From NCBI RefSeq assembly GCF_016623615.1, contig NZ_JAEHFX010000005.1:186001-250000 (forward strand): DNA of 64,000 nucleotides. The letters are read 5' to 3'. Below the pieces are notes generated by a model. It was not told where the DNA came from. It searched no databases and was given only the letters and a program-made list of their open reading frames with translations. This document shows positions 7,367-41,056 of this stretch, piece after piece. Origin of the DNA: Adhaeribacter terrigena (GTDB taxonomy: Bacteria > Bacteroidota > Bacteroidia > Cytophagales > Hymenobacteraceae). The position numbers and the translations under genes are program-made. The first letter of the stretch is position 1; each line of letters begins with the position of its first letter.

Positions 7367-10342
7367 ATGAAAAAAGTATTTATTGGTTTTGCCATTTTCC
7401 TGGTAATCTTACTGGCCGCAGCCGCCCTGGTTCCGGTTTTGTTTAAAGATAAGATCAAGGAAGTAGTAGACAGGGAAATTGCCAAAAACGTAGAAGCCAA
7501 AGTAATTTATAATGCCGATGATATTGGCGTAAGCATTTTCAGCACCTTCCCGAATTTAGGATTGAACATCGATAACCTAGCGGTAGTAGGCGTAGATTCG
7601 TTTCAGCGCGACACGCTGGCTTACCTGCCCCAGTTCCGCATGGGCCTGGATCTGATGAGCGTAATTTCCGGCGATCAGCTGAAGATCAAATCCATAAAAC
7701 TTACCCAGCCCAACATTAAGCTCAAAGTGCTGAAAAGCGGCAAAGCCAACTGGGATATTTACAAAGCCGTTCCCACCGAAGGCGAACCCGATACGGTGCA
7801 GTCTGACTTCAGCATGGCCATGGAAAAATGGGAAGTGGAAAACGGCAAGCTGGTTTATGAAGACTTAAGCATACCGTTCTCGGTACAATTGCTTAAAATG
7901 AACCACACCGGCTCCGGCGATTTCGAGAAAAGCGTGTTTGACATGGTTTCTAAAACTACTTCCGAAGGCTTTACCATGACCTACGACGGCGTGAATTATA
8001 TTACCAACAAAAAGCTGGATGCCGATGTAACGCTGGCCATGGACCTGGATAAATCGCTTTACACCTTCAAAGACAATAAATTCAAGATCAACGATTTCGC
8101 CATGGATTTTGCCGGCACGATCCTGATGCCGAAAGAAGATATTGACCTGGACCTGACGTTTAAAGCCCTCGATACCGATTTTAAAACCATTCTTTCTTTG
8201 GTGCCGGGCATGTACACTGAGCAATTTAAAGACGTGAAAACCGAAGGCAAGCTTGCCTTTAACGGGTACGTAAAAGGCCGCTTCAACGAAACCTCTATGC
8301 CGGGCTTTGGCACTGATCTGAAAGTGACCAACGCCATGTTCAAATACCCTGATCTGCCGCAGGCTGCTACCAACATTAACGTAGACATGTCTGTGGATAA
8401 TAAAGATGGCATCATCAACAACACCAACGTGGAAGTGCGTAAGTTTCACTTAGATCTGGGTAAAAATCCGGTAGATGCCAAAGCCGTTATCAACGGCCTG
8501 GACCCGATGAAAGTAGACGGAAACCTGAAAGCCAGCATCGACCTGAATGAAATTACCAAAGTGTTTCCGGTAGAAGGCATGACGTTGCGCGGTTTGCTGA
8601 AAGTAGATGCCAACGCCAAAGGAACCTATTCGGCCAAACAAATGCCGGTAATGACGGCCAACCTGAACCTGGCTAACGGCTACGTAAAATCAAAAGACTT
8701 CCCCGCGCCTATCGAAAATCTGAGCGCGCTGGTAAATGTGCTGAACGCCACCGGTAATACCGACGATACCGAGATCAAGATCGAGAACTTTAAAATGCTG
8801 CTGGAAGGTGAACCGCTCGCCGGCCGCGTGTACGTGAAAGGTATCGATAAGCCGATCTTCGACGCCGATGTAAAAGGCACCATCGATCTGACGAAGATGA
8901 CCAAGATCTTCCCGCTGGAAGGTATGACGTTAACCGGCCGCATTAAAGCCGATATTAAAACCAAAGGCAAGATGGCCGATATTGAAGCCGGTAAATACGC
9001 CAACATTACTTCGAGCGGCTCTATGAATGTGGATAAACTTACGTTTGTAAGCACCGATCTTCCTCAGGGCATGAAAGTTACCACTGCCAATGCTTCTTTC
9101 AACAACGAAAAGATCAACGTGCAGAATATGAGCGGTTTTGTGGGAAAAAGCGATGTGCAGATGAACGGCGTGATCTCGAATTATATGGGTTATATGTTCG
9201 CCGAAAACCAACCCCTGCGCGGCACCATGAACGTTTCATCCAACCGCTTTAACGTGAACGAATGGATGGTAGACGAATATTCCGGCCAGCCGGTAGCGCA
9301 GCAAACACCAACGGAAGCTACGGGAGTGGTGGAAGTGCCAGGCAACATCGATTTTGTGCTGAACGCCACGGTGAAAGAAGTACTTTATGATAACCTGAAC
9401 CTGCAGAACATGAAAGGCGCCGTAATTATTAAAGACAAAACCGCGAAACTGCAGAACCTGGCTTTCAACACGCTTGGCGGTTCGTTTGTAACGAACGGTT
9501 CTTACAACACGCAGAGCCTTTCGCAGCCGAAATTCACCTTCGATCTGGATATTAAGAACCTCGAATTCAAAGAAGCTTTCAACGCCTTTGAGACCATTCA
9601 GAAACTGGCGCCGATCTCTAAATTTCTGGAAGGTAAATTCTCTACCAATTTTGCTTTTGCTGGTGAACTGGGCCAGGATATGATGCCGGTGATGGGAACC
9701 ATGAGCGGGAAAGGCGTTATTGAGGTGGTGCGTGCCGTAGTAAAGAACATAAAAGTGCTGAACAAGATTGGCGAAACCACCAATTTTAAAGAGGTACAGA
9801 ACTTCATTATCGAAAACAAAGACATTGCCGCCGAGATCCTGAACGGTAACCTGGTGGTAAAACCTTTCGATGTGAAGGTTGGTGATATAAACATGCTCGT
9901 GGGCGGTACCAATAACCTAAGCGGTGGCATCGACTACGGCGTAGCCCTGGATGTGCCAACCGGGAAAGTAGGCAGTGCCCTGAATAATAAACTTTCTTCT
10001 TTTGCCGGCATGAAAGATTACAAAGGCGCTGAACGCGTAACCTTAAACCTGAAAGTTGGCGGCACCATGGACGATCCGAAAGTAGCGTTGGCCGGTGGCA
10101 GCGCCAAGGCCCAAGCCAAAGACATGGTAAAAGATGTGGTGGCTTCGCGCCTGAATACGGAGAAAGAAAAACTGAACGTAAAACGCCAGGCTGCCCAGGA
10201 TAGTTTGCAACGCGAATTAGACCGCCGCAAAAAAGAAGCGGAAGATAAAGCCCGCCAGGAAATGGAGAAAAAACGCCAGGAAGCGGAAGATAAACTTAAA
10301 AAAGAGGCGGAAAATAAATTAAAGGGAATCTTTAAACGCTAG
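7367..10342 (+). CDS. AsmA-like envelope protein
   Basis: The 991-residue protein has one N-terminal membrane anchor (residues 3-27) followed by the AsmA-type opening (VEAKVIYNADDIGVSIFSTFPNLGLNIDNLAV) and a very long run of repeated beta strands. The last 70 residues are a charged Lys/Glu/Arg coiled coil. AsmA-like proteins form elongated periplasmic hydrophobic grooves linked to lipid transport between membranes; this role is known for family members, not shown here. It stands alone on the plus strand. Its last codons, AAA CGC TAG, are part of a 29-bp repeat. Confidence 0.85.
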   Translation: MKKVFIGFAIFLVILLAAAALVPVLFKDKIKEVVDREIAKNVEAKVIYNADDIGVSIFSTFPNLGLNIDNLAVVGVDSFQRDTLAYLPQFRMGLDLMSVISGDQLKIKSIKLTQPNIKLKVLKSGKANWDIYKAVPTEGEPDTVQSDFSMAMEKWEVENGKLVYEDLSIPFSVQLLKMNHTGSGDFEKSVFDMVSKTTSEGFTMTYDGVNYITNKKLDADVTLAMDLDKSLYTFKDNKFKINDFAMDFAGTILMPKEDIDLDLTFKALDTDFKTILSLVPGMYTEQFKDVKTEGKLAFNGYVKGRFNETSMPGFGTDLKVTNAMFKYPDLPQAATNINVDMSVDNKDGIINNTNVEVRKFHLDLGKNPVDAKAVINGLDPMKVDGNLKASIDLNEITKVFPVEGMTLRGLLKVDANAKGTYSAKQMPVMTANLNLANGYVKSKDFPAPIENLSALVNVLNATGNTDDTEIKIENFKMLLEGEPLAGRVYVKGIDKPIFDADVKGTIDLTKMTKIFPLEGMTLTGRIKADIKTKGKMADIEAGKYANITSSGSMNVDKLTFVSTDLPQGMKVTTANASFNNEKINVQNMSGFVGKSDVQMNGVISNYMGYMFAENQPLRGTMNVSSNRFNVNEWMVDEYSGQPVAQQTPTEATGVVEVPGNIDFVLNATVKEVLYDNLNLQNMKGAVIIKDKTAKLQNLAFNTLGGSFVTNGSYNTQSLSQPKFTFDLDIKNLEFKEAFNAFETIQKLAPISKFLEGKFSTNFAFAGELGQDMMPVMGTMSGKGVIEVVRAVVKNIKVLNKIGETTNFKEVQNFIIENKDIAAEILNGNLVVKPFDVKVGDINMLVGGTNNLSGGIDYGVALDVPTGKVGSALNNKLSSFAGMKDYKGAERVTLNLKVGGTMDDPKVALAGGSAKAQAKDMVKDVVASRLNTEKEKLNVKRQAAQDSLQRELDRRKKEAEDKARQEMEKKRQEAEDKLKKEAENKLKGIFKR

Positions 10343-30919: not shown

Positions 30920-30950
30920 TTTGTTTTCGTTTAAATGCCGCTTACCTTTG
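30920..30950 (+). promoter_or_regulatory. Bacteroidota-type promoter of the attenuator leader
   Basis: TTTG at 30920-30923 and TACCTTTG (matches TAnnTTTG) at 30943-30950, 19 bp apart. Transcription should start about 7 bp later, virtually at the ATG of the first leader ORF, so that ORF would be leaderless or nearly so. Confidence 0.8.
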
Positions 30951-30957
30951 TAACATT

Positions 30958-31041
30958 ATGATCAACTATTCGCAAAATATGTTCTGTGTGATTTGCATGA
31001 AGCGCCACTACCTGGCTGCCGAAGGGAACCTTATTGCGTAA
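30958..31041 (+). CDS. leader peptide A (27 aa) of a putative cysteine attenuator
   Basis: ATG 30958 to TAA 31039-31041. The peptide includes FCVICMKRHY: two Cys codons three residues apart, followed by His and Tyr. Its later codons GCC GAA GGG contain CCGAAGGG (31019-31026), the exact complement of CCCTTCGG in the terminator that follows. This is the layout of a ribosome-mediated attenuator leader in which stalling at the Cys codons would leave CCGAAGGG free to pair with the terminator arm. No translation evidence beyond this. Confidence 0.65.
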   Translation: MINYSQNMFCVICMKRHYLAAEGNLIA

Positions 31042-31103
31042 CGAAAAAGAATTAATTCGATAAGCATACAGAAGCCCTTCGGTGAACCCGGGGGGCTTTT
31101 TTT
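31019..31103 (+). promoter_or_regulatory. attenuator A: antiterminator arm plus terminator
   Basis: Terminator stem AGCCCTTCGG (31073-31082) with CCGGGGGGCT (31088-31097), 5-nt loop, then T7. The antiterminator arm CCGAAGGG (31019-31026) is perfectly complementary to 31075-31082, so two mutually exclusive folds exist. Confidence 0.8.
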
Positions 31104-31126
31104 ATTTCTTATTAATAAACCTTAGA

Positions 31127-31234
31127 ATGAAGATTTACTCAAATATTGTCCGTTTCCGCTTTATCTGCAAGCAAATGCATTGCATGAAAAAGTGCTGTAT
31201 CCCGGCTCGAAGCCTTACCCTGGCATATTTGTAA
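31127..31234 (+). CDS. leader peptide B (35 aa) of a putative cysteine attenuator
   Basis: ATG 31127 to TAA 31232-31234. The peptide holds CKQMHCMKKCC, four Cys codons in eleven residues, then IPARS. The codons for PARS carry GGCTCGAAG (31204-31212), the exact complement of CTTCGAGCC in the terminator that follows. Both leaders share a CMK(R/K) core and related nucleotide sequence around TTGCATGAA, pointing to duplication. I see no separate TAnnTTTG promoter between A and B, so B is probably read only when A is bypassed. Confidence 0.65.
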   Translation: MKIYSNIVRFRFICKQMHCMKKCCIPARSLTLAYL

Positions 31235-31293
31235 ATAATGCATACAAATTAAAACCAACCAAGCCCTTCGAGCCACCGCCGGAGGGCTTTTTT
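31204..31293 (+). promoter_or_regulatory. attenuator B: antiterminator arm plus terminator
   Basis: Terminator stem AAGCCCTTCG (31261-31270) with CGGAGGGCTT (31280-31289), then T6. The antiterminator arm GGCTCGAAG (31204-31212) is complementary to 31266-31274 over 9 bp. The pairing sequence differs from attenuator A on both sides, so the pairing has been kept by compensating changes. Confidence 0.8.
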
Positions 31294-31336
31294 ATTTTTT
31301 TCAACTAAATTTTTTAACCATTAACCATTTACCCGT

Positions 31337-31813
31337 ATGAACACTGCAAACCTCACCAATCAAACCTATCCGCAAGCATTAGTTTCTGTAAATTCCGTTA
31401 ATTCTGTACCCAAACACGTTGAGTGTAAACAGCATATTATGGTACCCGAAGTTGCTAAAACACGCCTTTTCCGCCTGCAGCAGGCCCCGGAAAAACCACC
31501 TATACTCGATCAGGTAATACAACTGCTCCGAAGTCATGGGTTTTCTGAACGTGATTTCCGGATAGGAATTACCGGTTTCGGGGACGTGAAAACGCACTTA
31601 GCTGAAATTGGCCTGGTAAGCACTACACCCGGTTTTTACAACCTGCACGTTGGCGGCAACCGCAAGGGCGATCAGCTCAATAAAATTTACAGCATCAACG
31701 TTCCGGAAAATACAATCCTGGACGAACTGAGCGAATTATTGTCGTTTTTTAAAATTGCCCGCCAGACGGGAGAAAGATTCGGTGAGTTTGTAAGCCGGAA
31801 GCAATTAGTTTAA
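31337..31813 (+). CDS. sulfite-reductase C-terminal-like domain, lacking Fe-S cysteines
   Basis: From about residue 45 the 158-residue protein aligns by eye with the last domain of assimilatory sulfite reductase hemoprotein (CysI): RIGITGFGDVKTHLAEIGLV, TPGFYNLHVGGNRKGDQLNKIY, ILDELSELL and GERFGEFVSR. Known CysI carries TGCPNGC at the first motif; here it reads TGFGDVK, so the cluster cysteines are absent, and the N-terminal three quarters of the enzyme are missing. It cannot be a catalytic sulfite reductase; a regulatory, binding or scaffold role, or a relic, are options. It follows two putative cysteine attenuators and is 13 bp from the next gene. Confidence 0.8.
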   Translation: MNTANLTNQTYPQALVSVNSVNSVPKHVECKQHIMVPEVAKTRLFRLQQAPEKPPILDQVIQLLRSHGFSERDFRIGITGFGDVKTHLAEIGLVSTTPGFYNLHVGGNRKGDQLNKIYSINVPENTILDELSELLSFFKIARQTGERFGEFVSRKQLV

Positions 31814-31826
31814 CCAAAGAAAGATC

Positions 31827-32174
31827 ATGAAAATAGCCATAGATGAATTGTTGGAAGCCATGGATAATGCCGCTGCCAAAACCCTGGGCCGCCAGCAACT
31901 AAACCTGAAATATGCAGGCCTCAACCTGAAAGAATCGCAGGATAAATCGGTTCTGAAGCTTTCCGGCAACACCCTAATTATTGAGCCGCAGATCCTGGAA
32001 GCCGGAGAAGCCAACGTTGCCATGAAGATCACGATCCGGCAGCGCAGCTTTTCGGGAGAAGTTTCGGGGGTTTTAACCGCGCAGCTCAATTTTATCCGGA
32101 TGCCCATCAGCAACTTCTTCCCGGAAGAAATAGCCGAAAACATTGCCGTGTTCACCACGCTTTCGCTGAATTAA
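31827..32174 (+). CDS. small protein of unknown function, second gene of the attenuated operon
   Basis: A 115-residue soluble protein with a helical start (AIDELLEAMDNAAAKTLG) and then mostly beta strands (NLKYAGLNLKESQDKSVLKLSGNTLIIEP, VAMKITIRQRSFSGEVSGVLTAQLNFIRM). No family recognised, no Cys residues, no signal. It starts 13 bp after the sulfite-reductase-like gene and shares its terminator, so the two should be co-regulated by the upstream attenuators. Confidence 0.7.
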   Translation: MKIAIDELLEAMDNAAAKTLGRQQLNLKYAGLNLKESQDKSVLKLSGNTLIIEPQILEAGEANVAMKITIRQRSFSGEVSGVLTAQLNFIRMPISNFFPEEIAENIAVFTTLSLN

Positions 32175-35386: not shown

Positions 35387-35719
35387 ATGAAAACACTGAA
35401 GAAATTTGCCTTGCTTGGTTTGGTAGCGCCGCTGCTTTTCTCGCTGCTGTCTTTTACTAATGCTGTTGCTGGAGAGGGAAGTTTGGTAGCAATTAAAGTT
35501 TATGAAAAAAGTGGTAAGGATAGAATTGCCATTTATGCAGATGAAGAGGTTACTGAAATTAAGCTTGAAAATGGATCTGACAATGTTTCTAGAGATAAAA
35601 ATCTAGCAACTATTTCAAAGACTATAGAACAGTACTTAAAAGAAGGCTATAAAATTCAAGCAACTAGTAGTGCTGATTTTAACGGGCATATAGCTACCAC
35701 CTACATCCTAACCAAATGA
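35387..35719 (+). CDS. small secreted protein, tandem paralogue 1
   Basis: The 110-residue product has a signal peptide (APLLFSLLSFTNAVAGEG) followed by VAIKVYEKSGKDRIAIYADEEVTEIKLENG, a helical middle with LATISKTIEQYLKEGYKIQ, and the end TTYILTK. No family recognised; about 85 residues after cleavage. It overlaps the next gene by 4 bp (ATGA), so the three are translationally coupled. AT-rich compared with nrdA and nrdB around it. Confidence 0.75.
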   Translation: MKTLKKFALLGLVAPLLFSLLSFTNAVAGEGSLVAIKVYEKSGKDRIAIYADEEVTEIKLENGSDNVSRDKNLATISKTIEQYLKEGYKIQATSSADFNGHIATTYILTK

Positions 35720-36042
35720 AACTACTGAAAAAATCGATACTCCTGAGCTTGGTAGCACCGCTGCTTTTCTCACTGCTGTCTTTTACAAATGCAGTTGGCG
35801 GAGGAGAAGTAGTAACTATAAGAGTTTATGAAGAAGGAGCAACGGGCAGTATTATTATTTATTCCAATGGGACTACTTCTAAAACCAAACTTGATACTAG
35901 TTCCAGAGATAAAGTTGTGACAACTATTTCGCAAACTCTTGAGCAATATTTAAAAGCAGGGTTTAAAGTTGAAACTTCTAATTCAGCTCATACAGGAAGC
36001 ACTAATACAGGTATTATGACCACCTACATCCTAACCAAATGA
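35716..36042 (+). CDS. small secreted protein, tandem paralogue 2
   Basis: A 108-residue copy with nearly the same signal peptide and the same last residues (TTYILTK) as its neighbours, but a more divergent centre (VTIRVYEEGATGSIIIYSNGTTSKTKLD). The conserved helix reads VTTISQTLEQYLKAGFKVE. Start and stop overlap both neighbours by 4 bp. Confidence 0.75.
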   Translation: MKLLKKSILLSLVAPLLFSLLSFTNAVGGGEVVTIRVYEEGATGSIIIYSNGTTSKTKLDTSSRDKVVTTISQTLEQYLKAGFKVETSNSAHTGSTNTGIMTTYILTK

Positions 36043-36389
36043 AACTACTGAAGAAATCTATACTCCTGAGCCTGGGAGCGCCGCTGCTTTTCTCACTGCT
36101 ATCTTTTACAAATGCAATAGCTGGAGAAGGGAAAGTAGTAACAATTAGAGTTTATGAAACCTGTAAACTATGTGGTAGCTGGTCACCTAAAATTCAGGTA
36201 GTAGAAGATGGAAACTCCAGAATTATCGCACTTGAAAAATTTGAGCCTAAACAGCCTGAGCTGAGTAAAAATCTGGAAACGATAAATACTGTTTTAGAAG
36301 AATATATTAAGAAAGATTACAAGATTTCAGCTTTTACAAGTGAAGCGGCTGCAACATTTATGATAACCACCTACATCCTAACCAAATAA
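36039..36389 (+). CDS. small secreted protein, tandem paralogue 3
   Basis: A 116-residue copy. It differs by an inserted Cys pair (YETCKLCGSWSPKIQ, CxxC) absent from the other two, and keeps VNxxLEEYIKKDYKIS-type helix and the TTYILTK end. The CxxC suggests metal or disulfide chemistry in this copy only. It is followed by a nrdA leader without a clear terminator. Confidence 0.75.
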   Translation: MKLLKKSILLSLGAPLLFSLLSFTNAIAGEGKVVTIRVYETCKLCGSWSPKIQVVEDGNSRIIALEKFEPKQPELSKNLETINTVLEEYIKKDYKISAFTSEAAATFMITTYILTK

Positions 36390-41024: not shown

Positions 41025-41056
41025 AAAAAGCCCGATGCCTAGGCACTGGGCTTTTT
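41025..41056. terminator. intrinsic terminator fused to a 29-bp repeat
   Basis: AAAAAGCCC / GGGCTTTTT stem; its last T-run merges into the repeat at 41057. Confidence 0.88.

Follow-up and report, generated by a model that had tools for sequence, protein, structure and literature searches.

Probable serial cysteine-codon attenuators before a sulfite reductase fragment in Adhaeribacter terrigena, with tandem counterparts before sulfur genes of other Bacteroidota

Results

A doubled leader precedes a sulfite reductase fragment

The window (the whole stretch of 64,000 nucleotides of Adhaeribacter terrigena DNA that was analysed) carries a leader between a cyclase gene and two small genes followed by L27. 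Its elements and the two genes are listed below with their counterparts in Adhaeribacter soli (A. soli).

30920–30950, plus strand: Bacteroidota-type promoter predicted from the sequence; TTTG at 30920–30923, 19 nt, then TACCTTTG at 30943–30950
30958–31041, plus strand: leader ORF A, MINYSQNMFCVICMKRHYLAAEGNLIA; homologous ORF with the same end point in A. soli
30985–30996, plus strand: Cys codons of A; TGT at 30985–30987 (not conserved) and TGC at 30994–30996 (conserved in A. soli)
31019–31026, plus strand: putative antiterminator segment of A, CCGAAGGG; pairs with CCCTTCGG at 31075–31082
31071–31103, plus strand: intrinsic terminator A; hairpin 31071–31099 (−18.9 kcal/mol) and T-run, 5' arm core CCCTTCGG at 31075–31082
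31127–31234, plus strand: leader ORF B, MKIYSNIVRFRFICKQMHCMKKCCIPARSLTLAYL; N-terminal half homologous in A. soli
31166–31198, plus strand: four Cys codons of B (31166–31168, 31181–31183, 31193–31195 and 31196–31198), the first two conserved in A. soli
31204–31212, plus strand: complementary segment of B, GGCTCGAAG; pairs with CTTCGAGCC at 31266–31274
31261–31294, plus strand: intrinsic terminator B; hairpin 31261–31290 (−18.3 kcal/mol) and T-run, 5' arm CTTCGAGCC at 31266–31274
31337–31813, plus strand: 158-aa gene, CysI C-terminal fragment; last ~105 residues match the C-terminal end of sulfite reductase hemoprotein
31827–32174, plus strand: 115-aa ORF of unknown function; shares 17% identity with an A. 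soli ORF of the same place and length

A promoter, two short ORFs, two terminators and two complementary segments had been proposed here in a preliminary description, and the sequence, the ORF list and the hairpin energies place all of them as proposed. ORF A is probably leaderless or nearly so, its ATG lying 7 nt 3' of the −7 box TACCTTTG; both the box and the 7-nt gap are conserved in A. soli. The ATG of ORF B sits within a longer GTG frame.

The 158-aa gene matched solved sulfite reductase hemoproteins of the E. coli type (phmmer, E ~3e-17) and covered only positions 435–541 of the 541 positions of TIGR02041 (E 4e-22). At the [4Fe-4S]/siroheme site, TGF--GDVK replaces the cysteine motif TGCPNGCGR, and the gene does not encode a full-length CysI with the four site cysteines; its product is predicted not to be a working sulfite reductase. 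No match to PF01077 (NIR_SIR) or PF01507 (PAPS_reduct) was found in the window genome, while the same searches were positive in 11 and 14, respectively, of 14 control genomes. Stand-alone CysI fragments turned up only in the window species and A. soli: none was found among 61 sampled of the 205 family genomes and 295 class genomes, where the other CysI matches were frames of more than 220 aa, and a contig scan with the fragment as query gave no match. Between the window and A. soli the fragments are 42% identical with intact frames and, because pS is saturated (0.78) with pN at 0.37, are under purifying selection. The 115-aa ORF (dN/dS 0.45 between the two species) seems to be nearly unconstrained. 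The CysI fragment and the 115-aa protein were modelled with AlphaFold at a mean pLDDT of about 49, too poor for a fold search; the low-confidence model of the latter consists of a helix plus beta-sheet. Of the sulfur-related operon that had been suggested downstream, only this C-terminal fragment and an almost unconstrained ORF are present. Farther downstream (35387–36389), the window contains three tandem paralogous, secreted-looking proteins of ~110 aa (MKxLKKxxLLxLxAPLLFSLLSFTNA...), where A. soli has one at the same place.

The leader architecture is conserved in A. soli

The syntenic locus of A. soli MA2 (G001) has the same gene order as the window (cyclase, leader A, leader B, CysI fragment, 115-aa ORF, L27) and retains the promoter together with the two ORFs, their terminators and the two complementary segments, with the neighbouring HemN and cyclase being 82% and 81% identical, respectively, between the two genomes (cyclase dS 1.6). 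ORF A differs by 12 non-synonymous changes (one of them a codon gap) versus 3 synonymous ones and has two Cys codons in the window and one in A. soli; the distance from the conserved Cys codon to the antiterminator segment (22 nt) and that from the end of CCGAAGGG to the stop codon (12 nt) are the same in both species. Peptide A thus diverges, whereas its control codon, the pairing segment and the terminator are retained, as would be expected of an attenuator. In leader B of A. soli the complementary segment has a different sequence, ATCGAAGGAGC, at the same offset from the ATG, and is likewise complementary to its terminator arm. The Cys codons that had been reported for A and B are all present, but only one of A and two of B are conserved; the ORFs, some of the Cys codons and the complementary arms do recur in A. 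soli, in line with the conservation expected of the proposed device.

The observations at this locus are also those by which a somewhat unlikely alternative can be judged, namely that the leader is a relic, the ancestral Cys attenuator of a complete cys operon whose regulated genes have decayed, so that it regulates nothing important and its parts merely persist. The lack of both Pfam domains in the genome, the loss of the ligand cysteines from the CysI fragment, the nearly unconstrained neighbour and the few Cys codons left are as such a relic would have them, whereas exact spacing, both terminators and both complementary segments have been kept in two species with large neutral divergence, and the CysI fragment itself is under purifying selection.

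A second alternative, which we consider very unlikely, is that the products are the terminated short RNAs or peptides themselves (small RNAs or small proteins) and that no switch exists. Starting from the good promoter, the two terminated transcripts would have lengths of roughly 150 and 340 nt, and nucleotide blocks such as TGCATGAAGCGCCAC are identical in the window and A. soli without synonymous change; however, the peptide sequences are not conserved, and a small RNA or peptide product gives no reason for unrelated leaders of sulfur genes to share a Cys run, its distance to a terminator and pairing with the own arm (see below).

A covariance model built from the four leader copies (A and B of the window and of A. 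soli) was searched in 205 family genomes, among which only the four source copies scored well above background; about 150 weaker matches were listed, and those inspected were bare terminators that yielded no further leader. An exact-arm pattern search of the family returned the two known loci and one unrelated match, and none of the other 79 loci in a cyclase-anchored search had the leader or the CysI fragment nearby. No Rfam family matched the window leader at the gathering threshold, and a permissive scan named none either. When 64 terminator-like sites were scanned with a simple, non-exhaustive script (which missed the A. soli copies), A and B ranked in the top three by length of the upstream complement. 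Matches to a poly-Cys codon pattern in the window genome (G000) and A. soli outnumbered those of a backwards control and lay mostly inside genes. A terminator with an 8-nt upstream complement (TGGGCTTT) at 41054 on the minus strand of the window may be a further attenuator.

Tandem Cys leaders stand before working sulfur genes in relatives

Short Cys-codon leaders were found before sulfur genes in a sister genus and, in tandem, also in three more distant families of the class; the comparison took in 12 tandem arrays and 28 elements. In the sister genus, which is probably Adhaeribacter in the strict sense, tandem leaders with a terminator each precede a PALP enzyme (cysM/cysK)–JAB protease–MoeB-like protein–cysH cluster (G003, G008, G013 and G028) or a sulfite reductase gene (PF01077, PF03460; G038), and a single leader precedes rhodanese and cysH in two further genomes (G018 and G023). 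Two poly-Cys leaders and two terminators lie before sulfite reductase (NIR_SIR) in family f31 (G569, G525 and G722) and in f39 (G533), one poly-Cys leader lies before sulfite reductase in f36 (G699), and in f74 two leaders precede cysHDN...cysI in G704 and one leader is present in G755. A hairpin of −11 to −23 kcal/mol followed by a T-run ended 25 of the 25 leaders examined with one procedure. Most of these relatives have 3–7 Cys codons per leader, compared with 2 in A and 4 in B of the window, which are scattered except for one adjacent pair in B. With one conserved Cys codon in A and two in B, the window pair appears to be a degenerate member of this group. The arrays, with working sulfite reductase or cys operons downstream, support the central claim of the preliminary description, two Cys-codon attenuators in series before sulfur genes.

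Cys-rich short ORFs were also seen in other contexts. In three genomes (G738, G785 and G623) they lack an obvious terminator. In Rufibacter, including R. hautae, MVYSSHIKRMRFCCCSSCCCCC or close variants stand about 80 nt before cysH at all five loci, none of which has an intrinsic terminator at the leader; these may represent another Cys-leader mechanism in the same family, possibly based on Rho or on translation coupling. At locus L047 (4780–5034) of a Hymenobacter-like genome, what by eye is a SAM-I-like riboswitch is followed upstream of cysH by a Cys leader, MNASSAAPQPSFLGFNSCCCCCMPMGRACC, which would place two sulfur sensors in series. At the same locus (8880–9152, genome G034), the sulfite reductase frame seems broken (a 90-aa C-terminal frame from ATG and a 225-aa open frame) with the operon otherwise present, through either decay or an assembly error. 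At four loci, short Cys-rich ORFs lie 74–144 nt before a large gene that by eye resembles TonB-type receptors, inside sulfur operons, and at three loci of another family Cys-rich short ORFs (e.g. MKKTTTFPSKTTVANAFKFAAACCCCQKFAACCCKC) without obvious terminator precede cysH or cobA-type genes.

Leaders are predicted to pair preferentially with their own terminator arms

For each element, the stretch that separates the Cys cluster from the terminator was paired with the 5' arm of the latter. The loci had been found by patterns requiring Cys runs and a terminator, with no pairing criterion in the selection; the duplex search takes the best segment, and shuffles were treated alike. Compared with shuffles of the same upstream segment, the duplex energy with the own arm had a p-value of ~0.008 for A and 0.001 for B of the window. 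Own pairing was better than shuffles (p <= 0.05) in 26 of the 28 elements, those within one genus being related. For the first 25 elements, own arms gave −16.8 kcal/mol versus −12.3 kcal/mol for permuted arms (permutation p = 5e-5), and with 12 representatives the values were −17.1 and −12.5 kcal/mol (p = 5e-5; Fisher p = 3e-17). The pairs involved are of different sequence (CCGAAGGG/CCCTTCGG, GGCTCGAAG/CTTCGAGCC, CGGAAAGGTTT/AAAGCCTTTCCG, GTACGGAAGGCTT/GAGCCTCTCCGTA(T) and GGAAGGGTTTT/AAAAGCCCTTCC), complementarity being retained by covariation, with changes on both sides. The alternative pairings that had been noted for A and B, different in sequence and still complementary, are thus borne out by the own-arm preference. 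These genomes are rich in short ORFs and in AAGCCC...GGGCTT terminators, and random short ORFs 5' of two ordinary terminators could have arms resembling nearby sequence; we give hardly any credence to such a coincidence in view of the shuffle p-values of A and B, the conservation in A. soli and the outcome of the own-arm test.

Leader A is predicted to switch, leader B not clearly

When the ribosome footprint was placed at the Cys codons of A, CCGAAGGG was paired with the 5' arm of terminator A (P about 0.87) and no terminator formed; placed at the stop codon, it gave the terminator (P 1.00). In these models, device A folds as the classical attenuation model demands. In A. soli, the upstream pairing of A had a probability of 0.88 versus 0.33 before the 3' arm is made, and the complete RNA favours the terminator, so that the antiterminator preference of this copy is predicted to be kinetic. 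For B, the two ribosome positions gave similar folding (0.71 and 0.70), because the stop codon lies beyond the complementary segment by 19 nt in the window and by about 39 nt in A. soli; device B does not clearly switch in the model. A terminating ribosome would cover the antiterminator segment in A of both species and in most relatives, but not in B of the window or A. soli. At equilibrium, device B and device A of A. soli prefer the terminator whatever the ribosome position. Across the 28 elements, upstream pairing of the 5' arm before synthesis of the 3' arm had a mean probability of 0.81 with the ribosome stalled and 0.46 with it at the stop codon, the change exceeding 0.2 in 18 of them. 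The classical attenuation logic that had been assumed for both units therefore holds for A in the folding models but shows no clear switch for B.

The segment of A also pairs with the arm of B at −17.1 kcal/mol, close to the −18.6 kcal/mol of B's own pairing, and cross-pairing is as strong as own pairing in the window genome, A. soli and the sister-genus arrays G003, G008 and G013; since the two pairings are of similar strength in these arrays, coupling between units A and B is possible. It would fit a reading in which device B answers to some other signal or to A's complementary segment, the terminators perhaps being coupled and not independent, and the folding of B without a stop-dependent switch agrees with it. 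In the distant tandem arrays (G569, G525, G722, G533 and G704), however, cross-pairing is weaker than own pairing, and we regard this arrangement of B as quite unlikely.

Discussion

The region is probably a transcriptional leader with two ribosome-mediated, Cys-tRNA-sensing Cys-codon attenuators in series, a degenerate descendant of a phylum-wide leader of sulfite reductase and cys operons. In the proposed mechanism, transcription would start at TTTG/TACCTTTG and ORF A would be translated at once. With charged tRNA-Cys plentiful, the ribosome would reach the stop codon of ORF A and cover CCGAAGGG, terminator A would form, and transcription would stop at about 31103. A ribosome stalled at the conserved Cys codon would leave CCGAAGGG free to pair with the 5' arm of terminator A, and upon this antitermination the polymerase would proceed into the second unit (ORF B and its terminator), at which the same decision would be repeated before 31337. 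We infer stalling, termination and read-through, as well as a device B that still works here. The operon behind the leader would have decayed to the CysI fragment, making the leader a degenerate descendant in this lineage.

Cysteine attenuation is known from few examples. Polycysteine leaderless short ORFs precede cys operons in mycobacteria (Canestrari et al. 2020, Mol Microbiol, cited in PMC13236596 and PMC9031893), where Cys leaders had been predicted by Seliverstov et al. 2005 without conserved terminator hairpins being reported (PMC1262725). They resemble the present leader in that Cys codons lie in a short ORF, leaderless or nearly so, upstream of cys genes and that cysteine is the signal, but are single leaders of Actinobacteria that have a consecutive Cys run near the ORF end and no conserved terminator hairpins, whereas here two units have intrinsic terminators with a complementary antiterminator. 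With its scattered Cys codons and intrinsic terminators, the window leader falls outside this class. The uORFC-8-2 motif before cysS in Rhodobacterales likewise consists of a Cys-codon uORF followed by an intrinsic terminator, with read-through proposed upon stalling at the Cys codons (PMC8632094); unlike the leader described here, it is a single unit with two tandem Cys codons near position 14–15, found in alphaproteobacteria before cysS only, and there is no Rfam or sequence match between the two. The gene downstream in the window is the CysI fragment and not cysS, which places the leader outside this motif as well. Two short ORFs act as two attenuators in the Salmonella mgtCBR leader (PMC3641672). 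That leader reads two different signals (ATP and proline) and has no serial intrinsic terminators, whereas the two units of the present leader seem to share one amino acid as their signal. The Bacteroid-trp RNA motif stands before trp genes. This cis-regulatory RNA candidate of Bacteroidota (RF01692; PMC2864571) is a different family, Rfam having given no match to the window or the scanned relatives. For amino-acid operons of Flavobacterium psychrophilum, of the same phylum, leader-peptide attenuation has been inferred in general terms from transcript maps, the main text naming no cysteine or tandem example (PMC9723704). Our search of the open-licence literature brought up neither cysteine attenuators nor serial attenuators sharing one signal for Bacteroidota; as far as could be found, attenuators in series that read a single amino acid are undescribed.

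The most economical account of the compared leaders is that Bacteroidota employ Cys-codon attenuators ahead of sulfite reductase and cys operons, and often place two of them in series. A further-reaching reading, offered tentatively and as somewhat short of an even prospect, is that the doubled Cys attenuator, acting as a steep two-step gate, would be a standard and undescribed control of sulfite reductase and cysteine synthesis in Bacteroidota that arose or was re-duplicated in several lineages; in this genus, it would have outlived its pathway and would now govern a CysI fragment that has lost catalytic activity and taken on a new role.

Should the tandem Cys leaders prove to be real switches, they would add to sulfur assimilation a regulatory layer that has been missing for Bacteroidota, a phylum that abounds in soil, water and gut. 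They would also allow a natural test of two identical attenuators in series versus one (lower leak, steeper response), and the window would be a case in which a regulatory leader outlasts the pathway that it served. Mutational tests are made straightforward by the many natural variants with co-changing arms.
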